The notes under the pieces are model-generated. The model saw only the letters and a program-made list of their open reading frames with translations, was not told the DNA's origin and made no database searches. DNA of 64,000 nt from Myxococcaceae bacterium JPH2 (GTDB lineage: Bacteria > Myxococcota > Myxococcia > Myxococcales > Myxococcaceae), in contig JAEMGR010000003.1 of the NCBI GenBank assembly GCA_016458225.1, positions 248,001 through 312,000 on the forward strand, in the 5' to 3' direction. Below, one piece after another: positions 4,630 through 59,558 of this stretch. Position numbers and translations under genes: made by a program. Within the stretch, counting starts at the first letter, position 1; each line of letters opens with the position of its first letter.

Positions 4630-6660
4630 TCAGAAACGGCACTCCCACTCCAGCTGGAACACGTGCCGAGACGCCGTGGTCGGCACGCGCGAGGCCCCCG
4701 ATTCGAGTTCCCACGCGTAGCGCGCTCGCACCGAGACCGCGCGAGGGGCGTCCCACGCCACCTCGGCGCTGGCCCGTGTGGCGCGCCGGGGCCGCGTCCA
4801 GCTCAGTCGTCCGCGCAGACGCAGGGACTCATGGGGCCGCAGCCGGACATCCATCACCGCACGTGCTTCATCGCGAGCCGACCTCGTGTCTGAACCACTC
4901 GCGTGGGCGATGCCGTACTGCGCGGCCAGCGACACCGCTTCACCGAGCTTCGACTCCACGCGACCCGTGATGCGCAGCCCCGCGTCCGCACAAGGCGCTT
5001 CGCCCGCACGCTCGACACAGTCTCCCGATTCCCCCACGCCCGAGTCCTGGTACTCGCCCCAGAGTGACGGCTGGAGCCACGGCACCTCGGTCCAGTCCAC
5101 GCGTGCCGATGCACGCAGGCGCACCGTGCCCGCGGTCCCTGGCAGCGAGCCATCCTCGGGGAGCGCCCACGCATCCACCTGACCTCGCGCGCGCCAGCTC
5201 CTTCCGAGGCGCTGCACATAGCGGGCTCGCGCTCCCAACTCATTGCGCGCCCGCGAGCCCTCCAACGAGTCCGGTCCAGCAGGCGCTCCCGTGTAGGGAT
5301 TGGCGAAGCCCCGTGCGTAGTAACGCAGCAGCAGCTCCAGCTCGCGCGCTTCCGCGGAGAGCACGGTGCGCTGGACCATGCCTACTCCACCTCCACCCTC
5401 GGGAGCGGAGTCGAAGCTGCGCGCCACTTCCAGGAAGAGGTCCACCGGCCCCGTGCCCACGGCCGCATCCACGCCCGCCGCGCCGAAGCCACCTCCCATC
5501 GGGTAGCCCGCGCTGGGACGGAAGTCGAGCGACGCCCCTTCGACGTTCCACACCGGCCGCGCGGCCCATGCCGTCGCGCCCACGCGCACGCGCGAGGACC
5601 ATCGCAGCGTCGCGTTACCACCGCCTGCCCACTCTCGAAACATGCTCGGCAACAGGCGCGCGCTCAGCTTCCCTTGTGGCGTCCGCTCCATCCCGCCCCA
5701 GACAGGCACCGCGCGACAGGCCGAGCCCGCACACGGCCCCGCTTCGCGCAACGCGGAGGAGGACAGCGATCGGGACTGATAGGAGCCGAATGCGGTCAGC
5801 ACCAGCTCCGCGTGCTCACCCGCGGGGCCTCGCACGGTGGCCGCGACGCCACGGAAGCCTTCGCTCCAACGAAAGTCCGGGGTGACTTCCTCCTCTCGAG
5901 ACTCCGCGTCGCACGCGCCCTCTCCCAGGAAGCACCACCGCTCCGGAGTTCCCGCGCCACGGACCTCGTCATCCGGCACGAAGCCCTCGGGCGTGGGCAG
6001 TCCCGTCGTGTCCAGCGTGAGCCGCTGACCGAAGCCCACTCGATACGCGCCCACCAGCATCCGTGCACGCGCGAAGGTCCCCTGCACGTAGAGCTTGGGG
6101 ATCACGACCGCGAGATGCGGCGGGCCCACGATGAGCACCTTCCGGCGCGGCTCCCACGTGGGCGCCTCGAACCGACGACGCGCGAGCGTGGCCAGCAATC
6201 CCACGCTCCATCCATCCGGGCTTCGCGCTCGCGCTTGAAGCGCCAGAGGCGGAATCAATGGATCCGCCATCGCGAAGGCGGTCAGGAGTCGCACGTCTCC
6301 AGAGAAGTGCTCGGGCCGCTCTCTCGCCCAATACGGCCGCAGGGTTCGCCGCTCGTCTTCAGAGAGCGCGGCGATGAGTCCTCCGGGCGCGGACGACTCC
6401 GCTCGCAGGAGCGCATCCACTCGCGCGTACGTCAGCCCAGGCAACGCGTACAGCAAGCCGCGCGTCGCGGACCGGGGCTCCACTCCCGTGCGCCGCAGCA
6501 GGCGCAGCGCTTCCCACGTGCCCTCCGACGTGGCGCTGTCCTCATCCATGGACTCCGGCTCTCGCGCTTCGTCCGACTCGGGCTCCAGCACGTAAGGCGC
6601 CGCGTGCCCTCGGGACGCGGTGAGCAGCAGCAACAATCCCAGGCAGAGAGCCAGACGCAC
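4630..6660 (-). CDS. exported HhH-motif protein with predicted outer-membrane barrel
   Basis: A 676-residue protein starting at GTG 6660 (AGAGGG seven bases upstream). Residues 1-20 form a signal peptide (LCLGLLLLLTAS). Residues about 48-88 hold a helix-hairpin-helix-like motif (LLYALPGLTYARVDALL), typical of ComEA-style DNA binders. From about residue 120 to the C-terminus the chain alternates aromatic and small residues and ends in Phe (LEWECRF), as in outer-membrane beta-barrels. The open frame continues upstream to 6993, but that part overlaps the opposite-strand esterase gene and lacks a signal peptide. It is the first gene of the operon with the LTD lipoprotein and nuclease. I am confident it is exported, moderately sure of the barrel, and less sure that the HhH binds DNA. 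Confidence 0.7.
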   Translation of the reverse strand: MRLALCLGLLLLLTASRGHAAPYVLEPESDEAREPESMDEDSATSEGTWEALRLLRRTGVEPRSATRGLLYALPGLTYARVDALLRAESSAPGGLIAALSEDERRTLRPYWARERPEHFSGDVRLLTAFAMADPLIPPLALQARARSPDGWSVGLLATLARRRFEAPTWEPRRKVLIVGPPHLAVVIPKLYVQGTFARARMLVGAYRVGFGQRLTLDTTGLPTPEGFVPDDEVRGAGTPERWCFLGEGACDAESREEEVTPDFRWSEGFRGVAATVRGPAGEHAELVLTAFGSYQSRSLSSSALREAGPCAGSACRAVPVWGGMERTPQGKLSARLLPSMFREWAGGGNATLRWSSRVRVGATAWAARPVWNVEGASLDFRPSAGYPMGGGFGAAGVDAAVGTGPVDLFLEVARSFDSAPEGGGGVGMVQRTVLSAEARELELLLRYYARGFANPYTGAPAGPDSLEGSRARNELGARARYVQRLGRSWRARGQVDAWALPEDGSLPGTAGTVRLRASARVDWTEVPWLQPSLWGEYQDSGVGESGDCVERAGEAPCADAGLRITGRVESKLGEAVSLAAQYGIAHASGSDTRSARDEARAVMDVRLRPHESLRLRGRLSWTRPRRATRASAEVAWDAPRAVSVRARYAWELESGASRVPTTASRHVFQLEWECRF

Positions 6661-6840
6661 GCTCCGGCCCTCTGCAGGACCGAGACCACCCTTCCCTACA
6701 AGAAGGGACGCGGTGCGGGCATCCCATCCGCGAAGCGAGCGTCCATGCGCGAGACGCGGACCGGGCCGACCGCGCCATCCATGTATGCTGGCGGGCACGC
6801 CACACGCAGCGACCGGGGTGCCCCCGGCCCGTGGCTCGCC

Positions 6841-7614
6841 ATGGGATACGTCCACATCGTCCGAGACTTCCCCTCGACTCCAGAGGGCTTCCGCCGCACC
6901 GTCCGCATCTACACTCCGGACGGGTACGACGCGGCGGCGGACCACCGCTTCCCGGTGCTCTACATGCACGATGGGCAGAACGTCTTCGCCCATCCCGAGT
7001 CCGCCCTCTTCGACACGTGGTGCGCCAACCTCGTGCTCGAGTCGATGGTGAACGAGGGCCGCTCGGAGCCGTGGCTCATCGTCGCGGTGGACTCGGGCAC
7101 GGGCCGGCTTCAGGAGTACTCGCCCTGGGACGAACCCCGCAGCGGCGTGAAGGCGCGCGGTGAGGCCTATGCGCGCTTCCTCGTGGAGGAGCTGAAGCCA
7201 TACATCGACAGCACCTACCGCACGCGGCCCTCCCCCGAGTGGACCGCCACCATGGGCTCATCCCTCGGCGGACTCTTCTCGCTGTACCTGGGCCTGCGCT
7301 CACCTGAGGTCTTCGGCCGCATCGGCGCGCTGTCCCCCACCGTCATGTGGAGCGGCAACCGGCTGTTCGACCAGTGGACTCAGCACAGCCGCCACTGGAC
7401 GCGCATCTATCTGGACGCGGGCAGCCACGAGTTCATCCAGCCCGCGGGCGTGCCGCTCAACTACGGCGAGGCGACGCGCGAGTTCTACTTCCACCTCAAG
7501 CGCCTGGGCTACGCGGACCACGAGCTGTTCCTCGTGCTGGAGCCCGGCGGTGGCCATCACGAGCGGGACTGGCAGCGGCGCCTGCCCTTTGCGTTGCGGT
7601 GGCTGCTGGGTTGA
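6841..7614 (+). CDS. alpha/beta-hydrolase, putative esterase (PF00756-like)
   Basis: A 257-residue esterase-D/enterochelin-esterase-type hydrolase. It shows an N-terminal strand region (RTVRIYTPDGYD), the oxyanion segment FPVLYMHDGQNVF, the nucleophile elbow GSSLGG near residue 141, and a C-terminal catalytic His in GGGHHERDW. The length fits single-domain members. No signal peptide, so probably cytoplasmic; the substrate cannot be told from sequence. The start at 6841 (MGYVHIV) is where family similarity begins; an in-frame ATG at 6783 is possible, and neither has a good ribosome-binding site. It diverges from the HhH/LTD/nuclease operon across about 180 bases, and the TIGR02265 gene follows after ten bases, probably in the same transcript. 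Confidence 0.85.
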   Translation: MGYVHIVRDFPSTPEGFRRTVRIYTPDGYDAAADHRFPVLYMHDGQNVFAHPESALFDTWCANLVLESMVNEGRSEPWLIVAVDSGTGRLQEYSPWDEPRSGVKARGEAYARFLVEELKPYIDSTYRTRPSPEWTATMGSSLGGLFSLYLGLRSPEVFGRIGALSPTVMWSGNRLFDQWTQHSRHWTRIYLDAGSHEFIQPAGVPLNYGEATREFYFHLKRLGYADHELFLVLEPGGGHHERDWQRRLPFALRWLLG

Positions 7615-7624
7615 GGCGCCTCGC

Positions 7625-8197
7625 GTGAGCCCTCGCCGTCCGCTGCCCTACGAGCAGCGCCTCGTCTACGTCCAGGTCGTCGAAGGGCTCCTCACGCATG
7701 GGCTCCAGGGTCGCGTATCCCTGCGACTCAAGGAGCGGCTGCGCCGCGCGGGCATCGACTTGGATCGCCCGCTGATGCCGGCCTACTCCGTCCCGCTGTG
7801 GATGTATTGCCTGTCCATCATCGTCGAGGAGACCCATCCCGACGTGCCGCTCGAGGAAGGCTACCGCCAGCTCGCCATCGCGCACGTGGAGGGCTACGGG
7901 CGCACGCTCATCGGGCGCGCGGTGTATGGGGTGATGCGCTTGCTGGGGCCGCATCGGTTCGTGCAGCGCATCCCGCAGCTCCTGCGCGGCACGGACAACT
8001 ACACGGAGGCCGAGCTCACCGAACGCGAGCCCACGCGCCACGAGCTGAGACTCAACTCGAACCTCCCCGCGCCGGGCTACACGGAGGCGCTCCTGGAGGC
8101 CATGCTGCGACTGGGTGGCGCCGCCGCTCCGCATGTCACGAAGCTGCACGGCGACGCGGACAGCACCGTCTTCGAGCTGCGCTGGCAGGAGCGCTGA
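7625..8197 (+). CDS. TIGR02265 (DUF2378) family protein
   Basis: A 190-residue member of the TIGR02265/DUF2378 family, a large paralogous family restricted to myxobacteria and of unknown function. Hallmarks are the N-terminal helix with RLVYVQVVEGLL, the central WMYCLSIIVEETHPDVPLEE block, the GYGRTLIGRA segment and the C-terminal FELRW strand. The start is GTG 7625, after a weak TTGAGG; the open frame extends upstream only by overlapping the esterase end. It is soluble with no export signal. It lies ten bases after the esterase and converges on the ATP-grasp gene (three bases apart). Its presence is one of the stronger taxonomic clues in the window. Confidence 0.87.
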   Translation: MSPRRPLPYEQRLVYVQVVEGLLTHGLQGRVSLRLKERLRRAGIDLDRPLMPAYSVPLWMYCLSIIVEETHPDVPLEEGYRQLAIAHVEGYGRTLIGRAVYGVMRLLGPHRFVQRIPQLLRGTDNYTEAELTEREPTRHELRLNSNLPAPGYTEALLEAMLRLGGAAAPHVTKLHGDADSTVFELRWQER

Positions 8198-8200
8198 GCG

Positions 8201-9364
8201 TCAGGGCGTGGCCTGGATGAAGCGCGCCGCCGCGTGCATCGCCTCCAGGTCCGCGTGCCGCGTCAGGTACATCTCGTTGCCCAGGAGGCTGTGGTAGACG
8301 GCCGGCAGCTCGCGGTGCAGCAACAAGTCGCGCCCCAGGTGTTCCACGATTTGCGCGTGCGAGTGCAGGTACTTCCGCTCGGCGCGCCGCGCGCTGTGAC
8401 ACACGTGGAAGCGCGGCGTGTAGCGAAAGTCTCCCACGGGGTCACCCGTCACCACGCGGGCCCAGAGCCGGTACACGTCGATGTCGCACGTGTAGTTCAT
8501 CATGTCCGTCATGAAGCCACCGGGTGGCCGCAGGTTGGCCTCCAGCGCCACGAAGCGCCCGTCCGGCAGACGGAAGAACTCCAGGTGGAACCAGCGCTCG
8601 CGCAGCCCGAACGCCGCCACGACCTGCCGGCCCAGCACATCCAGGGCCGGAGGAATCTCCTGGAGGCTCCAGAACGAGATGTCGCGCTGCTCCAGCACCG
8701 TCTCCATGCCCCCATCGCTGTACTGATGGCTGAGCGCGAAGACGATGGCGCCATGACGGTCCACGATGCCGTCGTACGTGACGATGGTGCCGCGCACGAA
8801 GCGCTGCGCCACGTATGACGTGGGCAGCGGCTGCGCGAGCGCGGTGTCGACCTCGGCGTCGCGGGTGACCTTGAACGTGTGCGCGGCGCCCACGCCCACG
8901 TCCGGCTTGAGCACCAGCGGATAGCCCACGCGCGCGGCGAAGGCCTTCACCTGCTCGGCGTCGCGCACGCGCTCCAGGTCCGGGTGCGCCACGCCCGCCT
9001 CGCGGAACACGTCCGCCATGCCCGACTTGGAGCGCAGCCGCGCCATCGCGTCCGGCAGGAGCCCCGGGACATGGAAGTCCTCGCGCAGCCGCGCCTCGGC
9101 CTCCAGCCACGACTCGTTGAGGGACTCGATGCGGTGGATGCGTCCGTGACGCCACGTGAGGTAGCCCGTGGCGCGCAAGAGCGCGTCGTCGTCATGGAGG
9201 GTGGGGACGAAGAAGTACTCGCGCATCGCCTCGCGCAGCTCGGGGCGCAGCGAGTCGTAGGGCGCATCGCCAATGCCAAGCACGGTGACGCCACGCTCGC
9301 GCAAGGCGGTGACGAAGTGGAAGTAGTGGGGCGGGAACTGGGGGGAGATGAAGACGAAGTTCAT
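8201..9364 (-). CDS. ATP-grasp domain ligase
   Basis: A 387-residue ATP-grasp enzyme. The N-terminus (MNFVFISPQFPPHY) is a Rossmann-like pre-ATP-grasp domain. The ATP-binding part includes VGYPLVLKPDVGVGAAHT (near residue 145) and the metal-binding end LEFFRLPDGRFVALEANLRPPGG (about residue 265), where Glu and Asn coordinate magnesium. These enzymes form amide or thioester bonds through acyl phosphates, as in carboxylase, peptide-ligase and natural-product tailoring reactions; the substrate is unknown. The start at 9364 is chosen from the pre-ATP-grasp strand; the frame extends to 9598, but that part has no family features. It is transcribed alone and converges on the TIGR02265 gene. Confidence 0.87.
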   Translation of the reverse strand: MNFVFISPQFPPHYFHFVTALRERGVTVLGIGDAPYDSLRPELREAMREYFFVPTLHDDDALLRATGYLTWRHGRIHRIESLNESWLEAEARLREDFHVPGLLPDAMARLRSKSGMADVFREAGVAHPDLERVRDAEQVKAFAARVGYPLVLKPDVGVGAAHTFKVTRDAEVDTALAQPLPTSYVAQRFVRGTIVTYDGIVDRHGAIVFALSHQYSDGGMETVLEQRDISFWSLQEIPPALDVLGRQVVAAFGLRERWFHLEFFRLPDGRFVALEANLRPPGGFMTDMMNYTCDIDVYRLWARVVTGDPVGDFRYTPRFHVCHSARRAERKYLHSHAQIVEHLGRDLLLHRELPAVYHSLLGNEMYLTRHADLEAMHAAARFIQATP

Positions 9365-9497
9365 GGCTCCTGTCGGGCGCGACCCCGCATCGCCACCATA
9401 GCGCGCTCTCCGCGCCGCCTGAACGGCCGAGGCCCCCTGGCGCCCGACTCCACGAATCCGGACAATCCACCGCATCAACCCCCGACGTGGAGGCGGC

Positions 9498-9758
9498 ATG
9501 CAGCTCAAGCATTGGGTCGTAGCGACCTGTCTTGCATTGGGAGTGACGGCCTGTGGCATCGAGGCGCCCGACAGCACCTCCGACGCCACGCCCGCCACGG
9601 AGTCATTGGACCAGAGCCACAGCGCGCTCGTCCTGACCTGTGACTACGACGGGTGCCCCGCGGGGACCTGCGTCACCCGCTTCATCGTCGACAAGCGTTG
9701 CCCTGGCGGCTACCGCTACGTCTGCGAGGCGCCTGCCCCGGGCACGACCTGCAGCTGA
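9498..9758 (+). CDS. small Cys-rich lipoprotein
   Basis: An 86-residue secreted lipoprotein. Residues 1-19 are a signal peptide ending in the lipobox GVTAC (lipidated Cys19). The mature part has an acidic, Ser/Thr-rich spacer and then a compact C-terminal region with six cysteines (CDYDGC, GTC, KRC, YVC, TTC), presumably a disulfide-stabilised knot. Small Cys-rich lipoproteins of this layout are common in myxobacteria and are of unknown function. GGAGG at 9489-9493 gives a good ribosome-binding site four bases upstream. It lies alone between the divergent ATP-grasp gene and the convergent LysR-type gene. Confidence 0.8.
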   Translation: MQLKHWVVATCLALGVTACGIEAPDSTSDATPATESLDQSHSALVLTCDYDGCPAGTCVTRFIVDKRCPGGYRYVCEAPAPGTTCS

Positions 9759-50479: not shown

Positions 50480-52414
50480 CTACTCCCCCGCGCGGGACAA
50501 CTGGTCCAGTCGGCGCAGGAGCGCGGCGTGACGGGTGCGTGACTCGGGGCCCCGTGCGCGCAGGGCCAGTGCCAGCACACGTGGCAGGTCCAGGGCCGCG
50601 CCCACGCGCAGGCGCTCGCGATAGCGCAGCTCCCAGTCCTCGGGCACGCGCAGGGACCAGTTCCGCGCGTCCACGGTTCCCGGCACGTTGTAGGTCTCCT
50701 GCATCCCGAGCAAGTCAGCGAAGAAGACCATCACGTTGCGCGCGCGGCAGGCGAAGAGGTCCGCGAACTTCGCCTGCGCCAGCTCCGCGGGGTCCTCCGC
50801 GAGGCGCCTCGCGAAGTCCTCACGTCCCTCGGGCTCGGGATGCAGGCGCTGGGACAGGTACTCGGCCTGCGCACGCGCGGTGCCACGCCACTGCCATGTC
50901 CCCACCCAGCGCCACAGGGATGGGGTGTCGTGATTCCCCACCATCACCCAGTCGTCCGGCGCCGCGTTCTCACTGCGGTACACATCCGAGGGGTTGTCGA
51001 GGTCCGCCTTCTGCGTCACGCGGAAGCGGCCCAGGCCGTGGCGCGCGAGTACGCGCCCCAGCTCATAGGGCATCGTGCTGAGCACCTCGCACAAGAGGTC
51101 CTCCTTCGCGCGGCCCTGGCGCTCTGCGGTCCGCACCACCGCGTCGAAGAGGATGCTGTAGCGCTCCAGCTGCTCGGGCGTGAGGGAGCGCACCCAACCA
51201 TCCGCGTGCCGGGATTGCGTGCGATCCAGTTGCTCCGGCCCGACGATGGCATAGCGAGCCAGCTCGGGATGGTCCGGCAGGTCCGGCGAGGAGAAGAGGC
51301 GCGCGCCCTGCTGCACCGCGCGCAGCGCATCGGGCTCACCCGCGCGGTACACCCACGGGCACACAAGCCCATGAGGATGGTCGATGCGCAGGCCATCGTA
51401 CTCGCCCAGCATCTTTCCCAGCCGCGCGTCCATGAAGCGCAGCACGGGCCCAGGTTGGCGCGCATCGGCTTCGAAGTAGTGCGCGGGATCCATCACGGGA
51501 TAGTTCCAGGGCTGTCCCTCCGGATTCGTGCGACTGGGCGGCGCGCCCATGAGGTCCGTGCGCAGGAACAGCCCCTGCCACGCCCACGCGTCCCGCGGCG
51601 AGAAGCCAATCTGGAGGTCACCGTAGAGCTTCAGCCCCCAAACTACCGCGCGCTCGCGAAGGTGCGCGTGCTGCGCGTGCACCAGGAACTGGAAGAAGGC
51701 GTAGCGGTCCAGGGCGGAAGCGTGCCGTGTCTCCAGCTCGCGCACGCGCGACTCGGCGGCGTCAGCCTCTTCGAGACGAGGACTGAACAGGCGCGCGTCG
51801 AGCGACGGTTCCCAGTGTCGCCAGTCCGGGTCGCCGCGCTCGGCGCCGAGCACATCGAAGAGCGAGTCCGGCGTGAGCCAGGAGGCGTTGTCCTGTTGGA
51901 ACGAAGCGAAGGCTCGCGACAGCTCGGTGGGCTGTTCTCGCTGGAAGGTGGCCCACGCTTCGTCGAGCGCGGCGAGCTGGGCACGAAACGCGAAGGCGTA
52001 GCGGACGTCCGGGCGCGAGGTGAAGGGACGCTCGGAGACGAGTCGGGCCAGCGTGTCCGGCGAGAGCAGTCTTCCCCAAGGGCCGTGCGCATCGGTGAGT
52101 GGCGCGAGCGCGACGTTGAGCACGTTGCGAGAGAACAGCGTGCCGTCGTACGGCGACGCGTTGTACTCGGTGGTCTGCCCTTGGGGGCCGAGCTGGACGC
52201 CCGTGAAACCCAGGTCGCGCGCGAAGGAGAACAGGCGCGCCGCGCCCTCCGAGTACGGCGAGCCACGGCCCAGGTCCTGCCCTGGGAGGCCCGGGAAGCT
52301 GGGGTCCTGGATGCTGAGCACCCAGCGCGTGACGCCCAGCGCCGCCAGGGCCTCGGTGACAACCTCGCGATGGTCTTTGGGCAACGGGGCCAGGGCTGCG
52401 TCTCCAGGGAGCAC
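50480..52414 (-). CDS. malQ: 4-alpha-glucanotransferase (GH77)
   Basis: A 644-residue amylomaltase that transfers alpha-1,4-glucan segments. GH77 signatures are the nucleophile Asp in YDGLRIDHPHGL, the acid/base Glu in LLCEVLST and the third carboxylate in VGNHDTPS. The N-terminal half contains SPYDGTLFSRN, typical of sugar-binding loops. The start is GTG 52414; a TAG lies just upstream, so no longer form is possible. The ribosome-binding site is poor. It may work with treZ on storage glucan, but the two genes are 28 kb apart. Cytosolic. Confidence 0.9.
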   Translation of the reverse strand: MLPGDAALAPLPKDHREVVTEALAALGVTRWVLSIQDPSFPGLPGQDLGRGSPYSEGAARLFSFARDLGFTGVQLGPQGQTTEYNASPYDGTLFSRNVLNVALAPLTDAHGPWGRLLSPDTLARLVSERPFTSRPDVRYAFAFRAQLAALDEAWATFQREQPTELSRAFASFQQDNASWLTPDSLFDVLGAERGDPDWRHWEPSLDARLFSPRLEEADAAESRVRELETRHASALDRYAFFQFLVHAQHAHLRERAVVWGLKLYGDLQIGFSPRDAWAWQGLFLRTDLMGAPPSRTNPEGQPWNYPVMDPAHYFEADARQPGPVLRFMDARLGKMLGEYDGLRIDHPHGLVCPWVYRAGEPDALRAVQQGARLFSSPDLPDHPELARYAIVGPEQLDRTQSRHADGWVRSLTPEQLERYSILFDAVVRTAERQGRAKEDLLCEVLSTMPYELGRVLARHGLGRFRVTQKADLDNPSDVYRSENAAPDDWVMVGNHDTPSLWRWVGTWQWRGTARAQAEYLSQRLHPEPEGREDFARRLAEDPAELAQAKFADLFACRARNVMVFFADLLGMQETYNVPGTVDARNWSLRVPEDWELRYRERLRVGAALDLPRVLALALRARGPESRTRHAALLRRLDQLSRAGE

Positions 52415-52496: not shown

Positions 52497-52808
52497 TCAC
52501 GCCGCGAGGGGATGGACGCGCACGACGCGGCCGATGACGTCTCGACGAGGCACCCAGCCATTGATGCGGCCCACGTTGTTGCCGATGAGCAGTTGCTCCT
52601 CCGTGGCTTGCTTGACGAGGTGCAGGAGGACTCCGCCCTTCCACCGCACCAGCACGATGTCGTCGACCTGAACTTCTCGCGGATCCACCGGGCTCAGCGT
52701 CACGCGCTGATTGTCCTCGATGCGACCTCGCATGGACCCACCTCGGGGCCTCACCTCCACGCGCGTCCCGCGTGACAACGCCTGCACTGCCTCAGTCGCC
52801 CAGCCCAT
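52497..52808 (-). CDS. mini S24/S26-like protein with Ser-His pair
   Basis: A 103-residue soluble protein. The core looks like the S24/S26 (LexA/signal-peptidase) fold: GGSMRGRI (Ser25 in the GxSM motif), a beta strand with VDDIVLVRW, and VLLHLVK (His63) where LexA-type enzymes have the general-base Lys. ER- and archaeal-type signal peptidases also use His here. The C-terminal WVPRRDVIGRVVRV strand completes the fold. It has no membrane anchor, so it is unlikely to be a signal peptidase; a cytosolic autoprotease-like or regulatory role is possible. The frame extends upstream to 53003 without homology. It lies upstream of malQ on the same strand. Confidence 0.78.
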   Translation of the reverse strand: MGWATEAVQALSRGTRVEVRPRGGSMRGRIEDNQRVTLSPVDPREVQVDDIVLVRWKGGVLLHLVKQATEEQLLIGNNVGRINGWVPRRDVIGRVVRVHPLAA

Positions 52809-53026
52809 GTTTCGACTCCGTCGTCCGAAGGAAAGACGGGCCGACGCCTGGACTGGAAACGACTGACAGGCGCGTGCGTCGACAAGCCACGCGCATCGCG
52901 ACAAATTGTCCGTGACCACTGTCGTGCTTGGACGGGATTGCGCTCGCGGCGGAGATGCGCGCGTCAATTCAAGCGAACCCAAGAGGGAGAAGCGTTGCGG
53001 CACACGCCTTGAAATGGGCGCGAGTC

Positions 53027-53518
53027 ATGGCCACTCCGACGCAGTCCTTCGCCCGCATCGCCCGCAACATTGGACTCACCTTGGTGGGGCTGTTCGTGCT
53101 GCTCCTCATCACCGTCGCAGTCGTCCCCTCGTACGACGAACTCCCCGAGGACTCAGCGGTAATGGACCTGCGCGCCATTCGCTCAGCGCTGAAGCTCTAT
53201 TACAGGCAGCAGCGGCACTTCCCATCCACCCAGGAAGGCCTCTCAGCCCTGGTGGCGACCCAGAACCTGGAGAAGATTCCGACGGACCCGTGGCACCGCG
53301 AGTACCACTACGTGCTCGATGACGAGGGCCCGCGCGTCTGGACGAACGGGGCGGACGGAGTGCCCGGTGGTGACGGAGAAAACGCGGAGTTCACCATGGC
53401 GCGGTTCGACACCGAGCTGCTCTGCGAACCCCAGGTGAGCATCACTCCTGCCGCGAGTGGGGTGCGGGACGCGACTCCCACCCACCCCGTGGCTCCCGCC
53501 TCACATCCTCCGCATTGA
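53027..53518 (+). CDS. GspG-like pseudopilin, copy 1
   Basis: A 163-residue protein. Residues 16-38 are a membrane helix (NIGLTLVGLFVLLLITVAVV). The C-terminal part has the GspG core: MDLRAIRSALKLYY, HFPSTQEGLSALV, IPTDPWHREYHYVL and NGADGVPGGDGENAEF (calcium-site region). A prepilin-peptidase motif (G^FTLxE) before the helix is missing, so it may not be processed as a normal pilin. It is paralogous to the gene at 53571. No other type II secretion genes are in the window. The C-terminal 40 residues overlap, on the other strand, a relic of the RND gene end. Confidence 0.8.
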   Translation: MATPTQSFARIARNIGLTLVGLFVLLLITVAVVPSYDELPEDSAVMDLRAIRSALKLYYRQQRHFPSTQEGLSALVATQNLEKIPTDPWHREYHYVLDDEGPRVWTNGADGVPGGDGENAEFTMARFDTELLCEPQVSITPAASGVRDATPTHPVAPASHPPH

Positions 53519-53540
53519 ACACGCGGCGCAGCCGACTCAG
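53442..53540 (-). pseudogene. relic of RND transporter C-terminus
   Basis: The minus strand here encodes 32 residues and a TGA, starting LSRLRRVFNAE and ending RPAPHSRQE, that match the last 32 codons of the RND gene (54022-54117) at 27 positions. A stop codon two codons upstream of the segment shows it is not expressed. It marks the end of a duplicated block. Confidence 0.85.
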
Positions 53541-53570
53541 CGGTCACGCACATCCACTCGCGAAACTCGC

Positions 53571-54098
53571 ATGACCATCTCCAATCCCTCTCGCCCACCG
53601 TGCTCGCCCTGGCGCTCCCTCCTGTCCTTCCTCCGGAACATCCTGGCCGTGTTCGGCGGACTCGTTGTCCTGCTATTCATTCTCAGCACTACTGGAATCC
53701 TTCCGCACCTGGGCGAAACGCCCAAAAGCGAGCGAGCGATGAAGGACCTGTGTGCCATCCGCACGGCACTGAAGCTCTATTACGAGCAGCAGGGGCACTT
53801 CCCCTCTACCCAGGAAGGGATCCCAGCGCTGGTGGTAACACGGCATCTGGACAGGATTCCCACGGACCCATGGGGCCGTGAGTACGACTACTTACTCGAC
53901 GACAAGGGCCCACACGTCACGGCGACTGGCGCGGACGGAGCCCCGGGTGGTGAGGATGTCGACGCGGACATCGACATGGACCCACTCGAGGCCGAGCCCA
54001 TCAGTCGCACTCCGGCGAGCGTCACTCCTGCCGCGAGTGGGGCGCGGGACGCGGCTCCCCTCCCCCATGAGGCTCCCGCCTCGCACCCTCTGCATTGA
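53571..54098 (+). CDS. GspG-like pseudopilin, copy 2
   Basis: A 175-residue paralogue of the preceding gene: a membrane helix (NILAVFGGLVVLLFILSTTG, about 23-42), MKDLCAIRTALKLYYEQQ, HFPSTQEGIPALV, RIPTDPWGREYDYLL and TGADGAPGGEDVDADI. As in copy 1, the N-terminus lacks a prepilin cleavage motif. The DPWG and GADG motifs are closer to typical GspG than in copy 1, suggesting that this is the less diverged one. The last 77 bases overlap the 3' end of the RND gene on the other strand; the tail SVTPAASGARDAAP is encoded by this overlap. Confidence 0.82.
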   Translation: MTISNPSRPPCSPWRSLLSFLRNILAVFGGLVVLLFILSTTGILPHLGETPKSERAMKDLCAIRTALKLYYEQQGHFPSTQEGIPALVVTRHLDRIPTDPWGREYDYLLDDKGPHVTATGADGAPGGEDVDADIDMDPLEAEPISRTPASVTPAASGARDAAPLPHEAPASHPLH

Positions 54099-57000
54099 AC
54101 ACGCGGCGCAGCCGACTCAGCAGCCACGCGCGACCGTCGGAGAGAATCTCGTAGACGGTTGGAATCACCAGCAGCGTGAGCAGCGTGGAGGTGATGACGC
54201 CTCCAATCACCGCTCGGCCCAGCGGTGCTCGAAAGTCGCCGCCCTCGCCGTGCCCCAGCGCCACCGGCACCATGCCCGCGATGAGCGCGAACGTCGTCAT
54301 GATGATGGGCCGCAGGCGGATGCGCCCCGCCTCGATGAGCGCCTCGCGCAACGGCGTCCCGCGCGCATGAGACCACTTGGCGAAGTCGATGAGCAGGATG
54401 GCGTTCTTCGCCACGATGCCCATCAGCAGGATGACGCCAATCAAGCTCATGATGTTCAGCGTGTCGCCCGTCACCAACAAGGCCAGCACCACACCAATCA
54501 GCGACAGCGGCAGCGACACCAGGATGGCCAGCGGATCCACGAACGAGCCGAACTGGACGACGAGGATGAGGTACATCAGCAACACCGCCACCCCCAGCGC
54601 CAGGAACACCCGGCCAAACACCTCGCGCTGGTCCGCGGACTCCCCGCCGAGCGACATCACGTAGCCCTTGGGAATCGTCACGCCCTTGAGCCTCGCTTCG
54701 ATGTCTCGCGTCACCTCGGAGAGCGAGCGCCCCTGCACGTTCGCCTGGACGTTGATGACCTTCTCTCGGTTCAGGTGATTGATTTGCGCCGGGCCCAGCG
54801 TCTGTCGCACCGACGCCACCTGTCCCAACGGCACCACGATGGGCGCGCCGTTGAGACCCGCTCCAATCACCAGCGGGAGCTGTGCCAGATCCGAGGGCTG
54901 CGTGCGCGACTCGGGCGCCAGGCGCACCATCACGTCTCGCGTCTTGCCTGAAGGGTCCACCCAGTCCCCCGAGTCGAGCCCCGCGAAGGCCGGCTGTAGA
55001 GACTGCGCCACCTGCCCCACTGTCACGTTGAGCTGTCCCGCCAGTCCTCGGTTCAGCTCCACCTCCAGCTCGGGCTTCTGGCCGCGCGTGGACAGGCCCA
55101 CGTCCACCGCGCCAGGAACCTGGCGGACCGCCGCCATCACCTTCTCCGCCAGCGCGTTGAGGGGCTGTGTCTCCGGGCCGCGCAACTCCAACTGGATGGA
55201 CTTCAGCGCGCCTCCAAAGCCGCTGGTGAAGACAGAAGCCGTGGCCCCGCCCACTTCGAGCAACTCCCGTCGGAAGACGCGGCCCAATGCATCCTGGTTC
55301 TGCTTGCGCTCGGTCCTTGGCTTCAGCCGCACGTACACCAACGCTTGATCCACGCCCGGCGCGCGCAGCGGCAGCGGCGTCCCGATGGTCGAGTAAGTGT
55401 AGGCCACCTCGGAGTGCGCACGAATGCGGCGGGACACCTCATCTACCTTGCGCCGCGTGTACTCCAGGCTGGAGCCCGGCGGCGTCTCCACCAGCACCTC
55501 CAGCTCGCCTCGGTCACTCACCGGGACGAAGCCCGCGCCGCCAATCGTCGCCTGCAGCATCACCGCGCCCACGAGCGAACCCACCGCGAGCAGCACCATC
55601 ACCAACCGATGGTCCAGCGCCCACGCAATCACGCCCTTGTAGCGATCCGCCTGTCGGTCGAACCAGTGATTGAAGTGCGCCAGCCCTCGGGAGATGAATC
55701 CTCTGCGTGCGCCGGACTCCGTCTGGGGATCGGCCCAGTACGCGCTGAGCATCGGGTCCAACGAGAAGCTGACGAACAACGACACCAGCACCGAGCACGC
55801 GATGGTGAGCGCGAACGGCTTGAACCACTGCCCCGCCACTCCGGACATGAAGGCCACGGGGATGAACACCGCCACGATGGAGAACGTGGTGGCCGCCACC
55901 GCGAGCCCGATTTCATGCGTGCCCTCGCGCGAGGCGGTGAAGTGGTCCTTCCCCATCTCAATGTGGCGCACGATGTTCTCGCGCACCACGATGGCATCGT
56001 CGATGAGGATGCCGATGGCCAGCGTCAGCCCGAGCAGCGACATGGTGTTGAGCGTGAAGCCAAACACCCAGACGCTGATGAAGGACGCCAGCGCACTCAC
56101 GGGCAGGGCCAGCCCCGTGATGACCGTGGAGCGCCACGAGTTCAGGAACAGGAACACCACCAGCACCGTCAACAGCGCGCCCTCCACGAGCGCCTGCTGC
56201 ACGTTCACCACCGCGGCGCGCACGCGCTTGCCCGCGTCTCGCACCACCTCCAGCCTCGCTTGTTCGGGCAACCGCTGCTGAAGCACCCGCACGCGCTCGC
56301 GCACGGCGTCCGCCACCTCCGTGGTGCTGTAGCCCTTGGACTTCAGCACGTCGATGCCCACCGCCTTGCCCCCGTTGAACAAGGCTTCGGTGCGTGGCTC
56401 CTCAGTGCCGGCGAAGACATCCGCCACTTCCCCCAGTCGCACCATGCGCCCGCCGCGCTCGGCCACGGCCACGCGCGCGAAGTCCTCCGGTGTCTCCAGG
56501 CGGCCTCGCAAACGGATGGTGCGCTCCTCCAGCTCCGTGTTGAGCCGCCCCACTGGCGCGGCGAGGTTTTGCGCTTGCAGCGCCGCGACAATCTGCGCGA
56601 CGGACAGGCCTGCGGCTTGAAGCGCGGCGGGACGCACCTGCACCGTCATCTCTCGGTCCAGTCCCCCCACCACCGTCACCTGGGCCACGCCCGCCACGGA
56701 GCGCAGCTCGCTCACCACCAGCGGATCCGCCAGTCGTGACAGCGCGGGCACATCGAGCGAAGGCGACGTCAGCACCAGCGACAGGATGGGCTGCTGCGAG
56801 GGGTCGAACCGCGTGAGGATGGGCTCCTTCATCTCCTGTGGCAGGTCCGCCCGTTTGCTGGAGATGGCATCGCGGATGTCCTGCGAGGCCTGCTGCACGT
56901 CCTTCGAAAAGTCGAAGAAGACGGTGAAGGTGGCCAGGCCATCCGTCGCGCTGGAGGTCGTCTTCTTCGCGTCGACGCCGCTGATGCTGAAGATGGCGTC

Positions 57001-57204
57001 CTCGATGGGCTCGACGATCTCTCGTTCCACCGTGTCGGGCGAGGCTCCCAGGTAGACGATGGACACGGCAATGACCGGCTGCTGGATGTCGGGGAACTCG
57101 TCCGTCTCCAGGTTGAGGAGCGCGACGATTCCGAAGACGACCAACGCCACCATCACGGTGATGGTGACGATGGGACGCTTGATGGCGAAGTCCGAGATGA
57201 ACAC
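54022..57204 (-). CDS. RND efflux transporter permease (HAE1-type)
   Basis: A 1,060-residue inner-membrane RND pump of the AcrB/MdtBC-like HAE1 class. Two repeated halves each begin with a membrane helix (AIKRPIVTITVMVALVVFGI; DHRLVMVLLAVGSLVGAVML), a large periplasmic loop and five further helices. The TM4 proton-relay carboxylates are in AIGILIDDAIVV. Such pumps use proton influx to expel drugs, detergents or signals via an adaptor and an outer-membrane channel. The adaptor gene ends 31 bases upstream, so the two are one operon; no TolC-like gene is present in the window. Its C-terminus overlaps the pseudopilin gene. Confidence 0.93.
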   Translation of the reverse strand: MFISDFAIKRPIVTITVMVALVVFGIVALLNLETDEFPDIQQPVIAVSIVYLGASPDTVEREIVEPIEDAIFSISGVDAKKTTSSATDGLATFTVFFDFSKDVQQASQDIRDAISSKRADLPQEMKEPILTRFDPSQQPILSLVLTSPSLDVPALSRLADPLVVSELRSVAGVAQVTVVGGLDREMTVQVRPAALQAAGLSVAQIVAALQAQNLAAPVGRLNTELEERTIRLRGRLETPEDFARVAVAERGGRMVRLGEVADVFAGTEEPRTEALFNGGKAVGIDVLKSKGYSTTEVADAVRERVRVLQQRLPEQARLEVVRDAGKRVRAAVVNVQQALVEGALLTVLVVFLFLNSWRSTVITGLALPVSALASFISVWVFGFTLNTMSLLGLTLAIGILIDDAIVVRENIVRHIEMGKDHFTASREGTHEIGLAVAATTFSIVAVFIPVAFMSGVAGQWFKPFALTIACSVLVSLFVSFSLDPMLSAYWADPQTESGARRGFISRGLAHFNHWFDRQADRYKGVIAWALDHRLVMVLLAVGSLVGAVMLQATIGGAGFVPVSDRGELEVLVETPPGSSLEYTRRKVDEVSRRIRAHSEVAYTYSTIGTPLPLRAPGVDQALVYVRLKPRTERKQNQDALGRVFRRELLEVGGATASVFTSGFGGALKSIQLELRGPETQPLNALAEKVMAAVRQVPGAVDVGLSTRGQKPELEVELNRGLAGQLNVTVGQVAQSLQPAFAGLDSGDWVDPSGKTRDVMVRLAPESRTQPSDLAQLPLVIGAGLNGAPIVVPLGQVASVRQTLGPAQINHLNREKVINVQANVQGRSLSEVTRDIEARLKGVTIPKGYVMSLGGESADQREVFGRVFLALGVAVLLMYLILVVQFGSFVDPLAILVSLPLSLIGVVLALLVTGDTLNIMSLIGVILLMGIVAKNAILLIDFAKWSHARGTPLREALIEAGRIRLRPIIMTTFALIAGMVPVALGHGEGGDFRAPLGRAVIGGVITSTLLTLLVIPTVYEILSDGRAWLLSRLRRVFNAEGARREPHGGGEPRPAPHSRQE

Positions 57205-57235: not shown

Positions 57236-58399
57236 CTACGGGGTGCGCTCCGGAGCCGAGCCTTGTCCCGCCCCGCCCACGCCTTGGCCTGAGTCGCGAG
57301 GTTCGGGGGACGGCGTCACCTTCACCGGGGTCCCCTCGGCCAGCTCGCGCGCGGAGCCGAGCAACACGAGGTCTCCGTCCTCGAGTCCGGAGCGCACCTC
57401 CACGGCTTGCGCCACCTCGTCACGCAAGCCCAGCGTCACGGGGGCTCGGGCAACCTTGCCGTCGTGGATGCGGAGCACGGAAGGCGGATCGCTGCGCGGG
57501 TCCACCGCATCCAGCGGCACGGCCAATCCCTGACGCGCGATGGACGCCACGCGCCCCTGGGCGAAGAGCCCCGAAAGCAGCGCCCGCGAGTCATTGGGGA
57601 CGTCCACGTAGATGCGCACCTGTCCCGTCGCGGGATCCACCGCGGGGTTGATGTGCTCCACCTGTCCGCGAAACGTCCGCGCACCGTAGCCGGTGACACG
57701 GAACTCCACGGGTGTGCCGGCCTTTACCTGCGCGAGCTGCACGGCGGGAACAGCGGCCTCCAGCCGAAGCGAGCGCGGATCCACCACCGTGAAGAGGGGC
57801 GAACCCACCTGGACGATGTCGCCTGTGTGCACCGCGCGCTCGCTGATCACGCCATCGAACGGCGCGACCACGCGCGTGCGCGTGAGCTGCTCGTCCGCCA
57901 GCTTCAGACGCGAGCGTGCATCCGCCAACTGTCCCTCTGCCTGCGTCCGAGCGAGCTGCGCGCGCTCGAAGTCGCGCTGGGTGATGACGCCCGCCTTCGC
58001 CAGCCTCGCGTTGCGCGCCTCATCCGATTGCGCCACGCGCAGCGCGTTGTCCGCCACGCGCAGCGAGGAACGGGCCGCGAGCACCTGGGCTCGCAGCGTC
58101 CCCTCGTCGATGCTCGCGAGGGGCTCGTCCTTGCGCACCGGCTGACCGGGCTCCGCCTTCACGTTCAGGACGCGGCCACCCACCTCCGCGCGCATGTTCG
58201 CGGCCCTCGGCGCTTGCAGCGTGCCAGAGAGGACTGGACCGCTGCGCAGCTCGGCCGGCTGCACTTTCACCACGTTCTCCGGCCCCAGGGTCACCGCGGC
58301 AGGAGTCGCCGGCTCCACTTCGCTGGAGCGGGCGTGGCAGCCCGTCGACAGCATCGCGAGCACCGACAGCCCACCGCTCCATGCCCACCGCCCACCCAT
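57236..58399 (-). CDS. RND efflux periplasmic adaptor (membrane-fusion) lipoprotein
   Basis: A 387-residue adaptor. The signal peptide has lipobox LSTGC (about Cys21). Domains in order: lipoyl half (AEVGGRVLNVKAEPGQPVRKDEPL), a helical hairpin (about 105-170), the second lipoyl half (TRVVAPFDGVISERAVHTGD), a beta-barrel (LRLEAAVPAVQLAQVKAG) and a membrane-proximal domain (QGLAVPLDAV). It joins the RND pump to an outer-membrane channel. ATG 58399 has GGAG upstream; the frame is open to 58600 without homology. It is the promoter-proximal gene of the pump operon. Confidence 0.93.
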   Translation of the reverse strand: MGGRWAWSGGLSVLAMLSTGCHARSSEVEPATPAAVTLGPENVVKVQPAELRSGPVLSGTLQAPRAANMRAEVGGRVLNVKAEPGQPVRKDEPLASIDEGTLRAQVLAARSSLRVADNALRVAQSDEARNARLAKAGVITQRDFERAQLARTQAEGQLADARSRLKLADEQLTRTRVVAPFDGVISERAVHTGDIVQVGSPLFTVVDPRSLRLEAAVPAVQLAQVKAGTPVEFRVTGYGARTFRGQVEHINPAVDPATGQVRIYVDVPNDSRALLSGLFAQGRVASIARQGLAVPLDAVDPRSDPPSVLRIHDGKVARAPVTLGLRDEVAQAVEVRSGLEDGDLVLLGSARELAEGTPVKVTPSPEPRDSGQGVGGAGQGSAPERTP

Positions 58400-58494
58400 G
58401 GCGTGTCTCCTCGCGCTCTCAGCCACCGCTGCTCCACCTGGAGGTGCCACCGGCGGGGTAATCACCGAGTCCTGGCGCGCCCACTGGAGGGCCC

Positions 58495-58526
58495 GCGCGC
58501 GCTTCGCCAGCGAACGAAGCGCGCGC
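58495..58526 (-). terminator. hairpin after ADYC lipoprotein gene
   Basis: A perfect 12-bp inverted repeat (arms 58495-58506 and 58515-58526, GCGCGCGCTTCG and its complement), eight-base loop, between the ADYC stop (58575) and the adaptor start (58399) on the minus strand. Confidence 0.72.
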
Positions 58527-58574
58527 CCAGGCCGTCCAAGGGCAGACATCGCGGTGCCGGCCCTCGGCCTTGCG

Positions 58575-59558
58575 TCACGGGGTGGCGGTAGGAATGGCAC
58601 CCAATGGCGACTCGCTCATGAGGAGCGTGCCCGTTTGGAAATGGGCCGACACGCCGCAGTCCGGGCGATTCGTCCGTCCCGGGCAGCTCACTTCTGTGTG
58701 CGCGCGCGTGACGGCGGTGAAGCAGCGCGAGCCAGTCACGTCCCACTCCGCTTCAGGGACCCACGGCTCGGTGTCCTGCTGCACGCCGATGGCGTCGTAC
58801 ACGTTCACCCACTGCCCATCTTGGGTGTGCGAGTCACCATCGCCGCAGAAGTCCGCGCGCACCATGCGCGTGCAGGCTTGATGGTGCGCCGCCAGGCTCC
58901 GACCGTCCGGCCTCAGCGTCCACGGCTTGTAACCAAAGTGAATGCACTTCGCGATGGCCGCGCCCTCGCACGCGAAGGTGAACGCCGAGGGGTCGTCCAG
59001 CTTCGCGCCGCCCGCGCCGGGGACACCTTGCCGGTAGTCCCAGCGTCCCGCCACGGCGATGGCGCGCAGCGGCTCGTCGTTCGGGCCCCGGCAGATGGAG
59101 CGCCACTGTCCATCCTTGTCGAGGAAGGACACCGCATAGGACCACACGTCGTGCTCGACGCCAGCGCCTGGGTCGGCATCGTCCACGCGCAACTCCACCG
59201 CGCCACCCTCCCCCAATCTGCCCTTGAAGCGCACGCCCACGAAGTCCGCACCCGACAGCACGTGCGTGCCGATGTTCCCCACGAAGCCGGAGCCCACCAG
59301 GCGCACCGAGTCGAGCGGGCGCAGCGTGGGTCCTTGCCGCGCGTTCGCGTAGTCCACGGCGATGAGCATGCCGCTCAAGTCCGTGCCGTTGAGGTTGCGC
59401 CCATTCAGGTTGCGGCCGTTGAGATTGCGGCCGTTCGGCGTCGCCAGCTCCGACCCTTGCGAGGACGTCGCCAGGGGCACCGGCGGCCCCCACTCGCTCC
59501 CGCACCCCCACAGCATTCCGGCAACGGCTACCGCTCCCAGCACCTTGCTCGCGCTCAC
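58575..59558 (-). CDS. ADYC-domain lipoprotein
   Basis: A 327-residue lipoprotein with lipobox MLWGC (near residue 17), starting at GTG 59558 with GGGAGG six bases upstream. An N-terminal repeat of NGRNL units (residues about 42-62) is pentapeptide-like. The rest matches the myxobacterial ADYC pattern: EHDVWSYAVSFLDKDGQW, AVAGRWDYRQG, FTFACEGAAIAKC, GYKPW and RADFCGDG (the ADYC motif, here with Phe). Several Cys probably form disulfides. The function is unknown; it is expected on the cell surface. It lies between the STPK/FGE gene (downstream end 59738) and the RND operon. Confidence 0.82.
   Translation of the reverse strand: MSASKVLGAVAVAGMLWGCGSEWGPPVPLATSSQGSELATPNGRNLNGRNLNGRNLNGTDLSGMLIAVDYANARQGPTLRPLDSVRLVGSGFVGNIGTHVLSGADFVGVRFKGRLGEGGAVELRVDDADPGAGVEHDVWSYAVSFLDKDGQWRSICRGPNDEPLRAIAVAGRWDYRQGVPGAGGAKLDDPSAFTFACEGAAIAKCIHFGYKPWTLRPDGRSLAAHHQACTRMVRADFCGDGDSHTQDGQWVNVYDAIGVQQDTEPWVPEAEWDVTGSRCFTAVTRAHTEVSCPGRTNRPDCGVSAHFQTGTLLMSESPLGAIPTATP
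59386..59430 (-). repeat. three 15-bp repeats in ADYC gene
   Basis: Three consecutive 15-base units (59386-59400, 59401-59415, 59416-59430) encode NLNGR-type pentapeptides; shorter partial units flank them. They are in frame, so unit number can vary without breaking the gene. Confidence 0.75.

Follow-up and report, generated by a model that had tools for sequence, protein, structure and literature searches.

The window analyzed here, a 64,000-nucleotide stretch of a contig of Myxococcaceae bacterium JPH2, a predatory bacterium from soil, includes a tandem pair of plus-strand genes with minus-strand genes on both sides. Copy 1 (53027-53518) encodes a GspG-like (T2SSG-domain) protein of 163 amino acids with what looks like a single predicted membrane span, and copy 2 (53571-54098) encodes a protein of the same type of 175 amino acids; both match the Pfam T2SSG domain (8.3e-15 and 2.5e-14, respectively). 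The copies share a core direct repeat, with the unit 53155-53454 in copy 1 being 74% identical to its partner 53735-54034 in copy 2 at a spacing of 580. To the left of the pair are a gene for a small S24-like protein of 103 amino acids (52497-52808), whose Peptidase_S24 match is sub-threshold (17.1 bits versus the gathering score of 23.3), and a gene for a malQ-like 4-alpha-glucanotransferase (50480-52414; Pfam Glyco_hydro_77, 3.5e-52) that, by synteny, is an anchor beyond the variable interval. To the right are genes for an RND efflux transporter permease of 1060 amino acids (54022-57204; Pfam ACR_tran, 3.3e-265) and for the periplasmic adaptor subunit of the RND pump (57236-58600; NCBIfam RND_mfp, 1.9e-67). 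A search of 52780-54200 by consensus, which may not cover myxobacterial promoters, revealed no promoter- or terminator-like sites.

Copy 2 and the RND gene are convergent and overlap by 77 bp (54022-54098, both strands) in phase 123:132, in which the wobble position of RND is the second codon position of copy 2. Copy 2 therefore ends in 26 codons, counting its stop, that read the RND tail in antisense. The overlap is present in both Citreicoccus genomes, that is, in the window genome and in the sister species Citreicoccus inhibens; copy 2 has 175 amino acids and the RND stop is at the identical place in both species. Since both frames are kept in the sister species, the overlap is not an annotation or sequencing error.

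Both proteins score below the cut-off of the NCBIfam GspG model (54.9 bits for copy 1 and 53.3 bits for copy 2 against 88.85), and a search with a five-row profile matched GspG structures, the best being 4lw9 (5e-17). The model of copy 2 predicted from the five-row alignment (mean pLDDT 68.8, pTM 0.49) matches the same structures (4lw9, E value 1.1e-05); from residue 141 on, the model has low confidence, with block-mean pLDDT of 43-49. Prepilin leaders are of the type G-F/M-T-L-I-E. No such leader was found by eye at either N-terminus, whereas the genome's own GspG (L003, contig C13) has the leader GMTLIEI. The preliminary description had called the two genes pilin genes, a label that stands for the T2SSG domain but not for the leader. 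Each copy is probably a GspG relative that is anchored in the membrane by a single span, has an outer domain resembling a pseudopilin, and would not be processed as a pilin. The genome's own GspG (L003/L091, contig C13) in turn adjoins a second T2SSG-domain gene that lacks the leader, and the same pair occurs in the loci of many relatives.

The antisense match between copy 1 and the end of the RND gene

The interval 53442-53570, which begins within copy 1 and reaches the start codon of copy 2, carries on the minus strand a remnant of the 3' end of the RND gene (approximately residues 1018-1060 and the stop codon). Aligned base by base with 54022-54150, it is identical at 105 of 129 positions without gaps, and the best other of 126,944 placements of 129 bases on both strands of the window reaches only 59. 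A chance match or convergence was ruled out by this difference. The same match is found by tblastn (RND residues 1018-1060, 67% identity, E 7e-11). It had been claimed that copy 1 carries, antisense, 32 codons and a stop matching the RND C-terminus with 27 identical residues, and a count on translations in the RND frame gives the same number, with the stop agreeing as well. An in-frame stop interrupts the upstream part of the remnant in the RND frame. In C. inhibens, the arrangement is the same and the remnant is more decayed than in the window genome: its RND stop is lost, and it matches the RND end without a mismatch over at most 10 bases, versus 30 bases in the window genome.

The repeat is contiguous, and the match leaves copy 1 across its stop codon and continues in coding sequence of RND. 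The spacer between the two copies (53519-53570) is mostly RND antisense sequence, with 31 of its first 36 bases and 8 of the following 16 identical to the RND end; therefore, the stretch before the start codon of copy 2 stems from the opposite strand of the neighboring gene. The far end of the remnant appears to be placed less securely than its initial 113 bases: 97 of the latter are identical to the RND end in the window genome, versus 8 of the final 16 bases, which adjoin the start codon of copy 2 (11 of 16 in C. inhibens). Since the alignment ends near RND codon 1018, the right border of the duplicated unit lies within the RND gene, and judging from the alignment the start codon of copy 2 is at or near the joint of the duplication. 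The left border of the unit is one that we only infer, because the two copies have little likeness in their N-terminal parts (51% identical in the window genome and 47% in C. inhibens).

The locus in relatives and its proposed history

The family search covered 96 genomes, the window's own included, and used both proteins as queries. For 55 close RND orthologues the 3' side was inspected; the sequence available there was at least 1.5 kb for the 30 loci that the search had yielded and, for most of the other 25, which were fetched by place, roughly 2.4 kb or longer. This count omits G048, where RND is in two pieces, and genomes without a close RND orthologue. A pilin-like gene downstream of RND was found at four of the 55 loci, as the pair in the two Citreicoccus genomes and as a single gene in Hyalangium versicolor and G042, and was absent at the other 51. 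These single genes lie next to the orthologous RND gene, in the position of the pair. In H. versicolor, the order is RND, pilin-like gene, S24-like gene, and malQ, with 162 bp between the stops of the first two genes; in G042, a gap of 5 bp, with no overlap, separates RND from the pilin-like gene, which is followed by malQ. Where the locus is titled Corallococcus (nine loci, L096-L104), less than 100 bp lies between the RND match and the start of the malQ match, and at two Pyxidicoccus loci (L116, L117) the S24-like gene lies between RND and malQ and the pilin-like gene is absent. In neither genome of the genus were the pilin-like genes of the pair seen at unrelated loci or without RND nearby. 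Given this patchy neighborhood, the pilin-like gene and the RND pump need not be linked in function. The distribution of the RND-adjacent gene in the family may reflect either one origin with losses or separate arrivals.

At the C. inhibens locus (L095), the S24-like gene is present twice, at 6433-6744 and 9225-9536, the two being nearly identical. Between them lie an ORF with matches to transposase DDE domains (6824-7378) and an ORF of 311 amino acids without a Pfam match. In C. inhibens, the locus therefore carries an additional duplication of recent date (6433-9536).

The shared tail belongs to RND. The tail motif RP-x-P-(Q/H), for which we know of no function, is present in 48 of the 54 listed RND rows (L037-L089 and L095; manual count), and in 45 of the 51 rows that have no pilin-like neighbor, the six lacking rows all being from genus g3. 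Most RND tails thus keep the motif without a pilin-like gene next to them, which means that the tail is RND's own. The opposite course of events, in which RND, after losing its stop codon, was extended into a pilin-like gene that was already there and the shared tail would be pilin-like sequence, agrees with the 77 bp that RND and copy 2 have in common. It is contradicted by the conservation of the RND tails just described, by the continuation of the match past the stop of copy 1, and by the single genes of H. versicolor and G042, both of which stop short of RND. We consider this course of events highly improbable and, given the RND tails conserved without a pilin-like neighbor, rejected it.

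A tree built from 57 RND tails unites both Citreicoccus tails with the two remnants in a clade (100/100), within which the remnants pair (98/93). By this grouping, the block was duplicated once the line had parted from the sampled Corallococcus, while the two Citreicoccus species were still one lineage. In a protein tree from which 20 near-duplicate rows and L005, an exceptionally long row, were left out, and in which the GspG label means that TLIEI is present, copies 1 and 2 group together (97/92), and the six RND-adjacent proteins make up one side of a weakly supported branch (68/75); the stem of copy 2 is about twice as long as that of copy 1 (0.55 versus 0.27). The 56-row protein tree that includes L005 is distorted by this row, and the RND-adjacent group is split there. 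A separate arrival of the two genes, with tails that converged or match by chance, would fit the poor likeness of their N-terminal parts and the several T2SSG-like matches found in each family genome. The match of 105 in 129 bases, compared with at most 59 elsewhere in the window, contradicts it, and both the grouping of the two copies and the same arrangement in two species speak against it. We consider a separate arrival highly improbable as well.

The reading that we prefer, with a probability of about 0.9, is a tandem duplication that included the overlap of copy 2 with RND. The reconstructed history would be as follows: (i) the ancestor had one GspG-like gene facing the end of the RND efflux gene, (ii) in the Citreicoccus line, the GspG-like frame would have run past its old end into the opposite-strand RND gene, presumably by the published route of stop-codon mutation, and (iii) a block of approximately 545-560 bp, probably beginning near the GspG-like start codon and extending, according to the alignment, to about RND codon 1018, would then have been duplicated head to tail. 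One unit would thereby keep the full RND gene, and the other would hold an antisense stump of 43 codons, to which the spacer in front of copy 2 largely belongs. After the duplication, the tail of copy 2 would have tracked selection on RND and the tail of copy 1 would have drifted, with purifying selection keeping the T2SSG cores of both copies. The preliminary description had likewise held that the duplicated block included the convergent overlap, and this is borne out by the base-level alignment, by the same structure in C. inhibens, by the single-copy loci of H. versicolor and G042, and by the positions of the remnants in the tree of RND tails.

Codon-position patterns and likeness of the tails

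The comparisons below are limited to the two Citreicoccus genomes as the sample of the genus, with rates that rest on 77 to 129 bp. Between the window genome and C. inhibens, the overlap of copy 2 has 7 differences, distributed 0, 7, 0 over the codon positions of the pilin-like frame; all are at RND wobble positions (chance 0.0005). The tail of copy 1 has 15 differences, distributed 7, 5, 3, and the two patterns differ (p 0.005). In the RND body, the differences between species by RND codon position are 28, 7, and 152, from which RND is the constrained partner in the overlap. These distributions support the proposal that the RND frame governs the tail of copy 2. The NG86 estimates of dN/dS are 0.271/0.206 for the tail of copy 1 and 0.147/0 for that of copy 2, and neither dN/dS nor codon positions, with few sites available, detect selection on the tail of copy 1. 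For the cores of the two copies, dN/dS is 0.133/0.444 and 0.114/0.355, and the ratio of approximately 0.3 in both suggests that the genes are translated.

The tails had also been described as more alike than the cores, with constraint by the overlap or gene conversion offered as the cause. In the window genome, copies 1 and 2 are identical at 210 of 287 core positions (73.2%), at 66 of 77 positions of the overlap (85.7%), and at 31 of the 36 bases that follow (86.1%), and the tail is more alike than the core (97/113 versus 210/287; Fisher p 0.008). The description therefore holds for the window genome but not for C. inhibens, where the identities are 71.1%, 72.7%, and 77.8%, respectively, and the tail does not exceed the core (84/113 versus 204/287, p 0.54). 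Constraint by the overlap is evident from the 0, 7, 0 pattern of copy 2, but because the extra likeness is missing in C. inhibens, constraint alone cannot explain it.

The same duplication followed by gene conversion, with the tail of copy 2 overwriting that of copy 1 in the window lineage only, would explain why the tail exceeds the core here but not in C. inhibens. Consistent with it, copy 1 of the window genome is nearer in the overlap to copy 2 (66/77) than to its own orthologue, copy 1 of C. inhibens (62/77), which drift alone does not predict. It also has fewer private changes there (2 versus 10 in copy 1 of C. inhibens; p 0.039, uncorrected, with several tests made); once the next 36 bases are added, the numbers become 4 versus 12 (p 0.077). 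The longest run of identity between the copies, at 54022-54037, was reached in 152 of 5000 column shuffles, and a softer score at 54014-54119 in 46 of 5000, whereas the run test limited to core and tail was reached in 344 of 5000. Applied to the orthologous pair of copies 1, the test gives equally extreme values within the N-terminal region (46 and 22 of 5000), which shows that uneven rates also affect it. Moreover, the overlap retains six copy-specific sites and has 2 sites of the conversion type against 1 of the control type. Gene conversion, hinted at in the window genome only, is thus a possible but weakly supported event of the window lineage, and we regard it as rather unlikely.

A use of the duplicated antisense tail may also be imagined, in which a transcript of copies 1 and 2 would contain the complement of the RND mRNA's 3' end and would tune expression of the pump, copy 2 acting in cis and copy 1 in trans. 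In the window genome, the complement would include a perfect stretch of 30 bases from copy 1. The longest perfect stretch of 10 bases in C. inhibens argues against such regulation; we hold it to be very improbable.

Comparison with known systems

The processes involved are known and ordinary, and the case is clean and unusually legible. A tandem duplication with a partial copy of a neighboring gene typically yields a head-to-tail block with a joint inside the neighbor, whose truncated copy then decays. The locus described here has all these features; unlike such duplications, it has a neighbor piece that is antisense and partly encodes the tail of the duplicated gene itself. The copies resemble the GspG/T2SSG major pseudopilins in their T2SSG domain and in their GspG-like predicted fold, and differ from them in lacking the prepilin leader, in scoring below the NCBIfam GspG cut-off, and in having an extra tail encoded by RND antisense.

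The locus amounts to a small natural experiment, in which one DNA stretch is seen both overlapped by a constrained frame and freed from that frame. It illustrates three points: one gene of an overlapping pair can set the final residues of its partner's protein, the same tail drifts when it is no longer overlapped, and antisense sequence of a neighbor can supply the stretch that precedes a gene. Without knowledge of the overlap, the values for the tail of copy 2 (dN 0.147, dS 0) might be mistaken for a sign of positive selection. Searches of open-licence papers, by title and abstract opening, turned up neither this locus nor a duplicated convergent overlap in bacteria.

Long convergent overlaps themselves have been described. 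The route to them by stop-codon mutation is treated in PMC2174442, which gives phase 123:132 as the commonest convergent phase, with 49% of convergent overlaps of at least 5 bp. According to PMC2478687, 338 genomes contain 54 possibly true convergent overlaps of at least 60 bp, and by this count a 77-bp overlap that two species have retained is unusual, though not without precedent. The present overlap resembles the described ones in being convergent and 77 bp long, in its phase 123:132, and in the antisense extension of one gene into the other. The difference from them is that here the overlap was then, on our reading, duplicated, so that one stretch of DNA is available for comparison both with its partner and without it.
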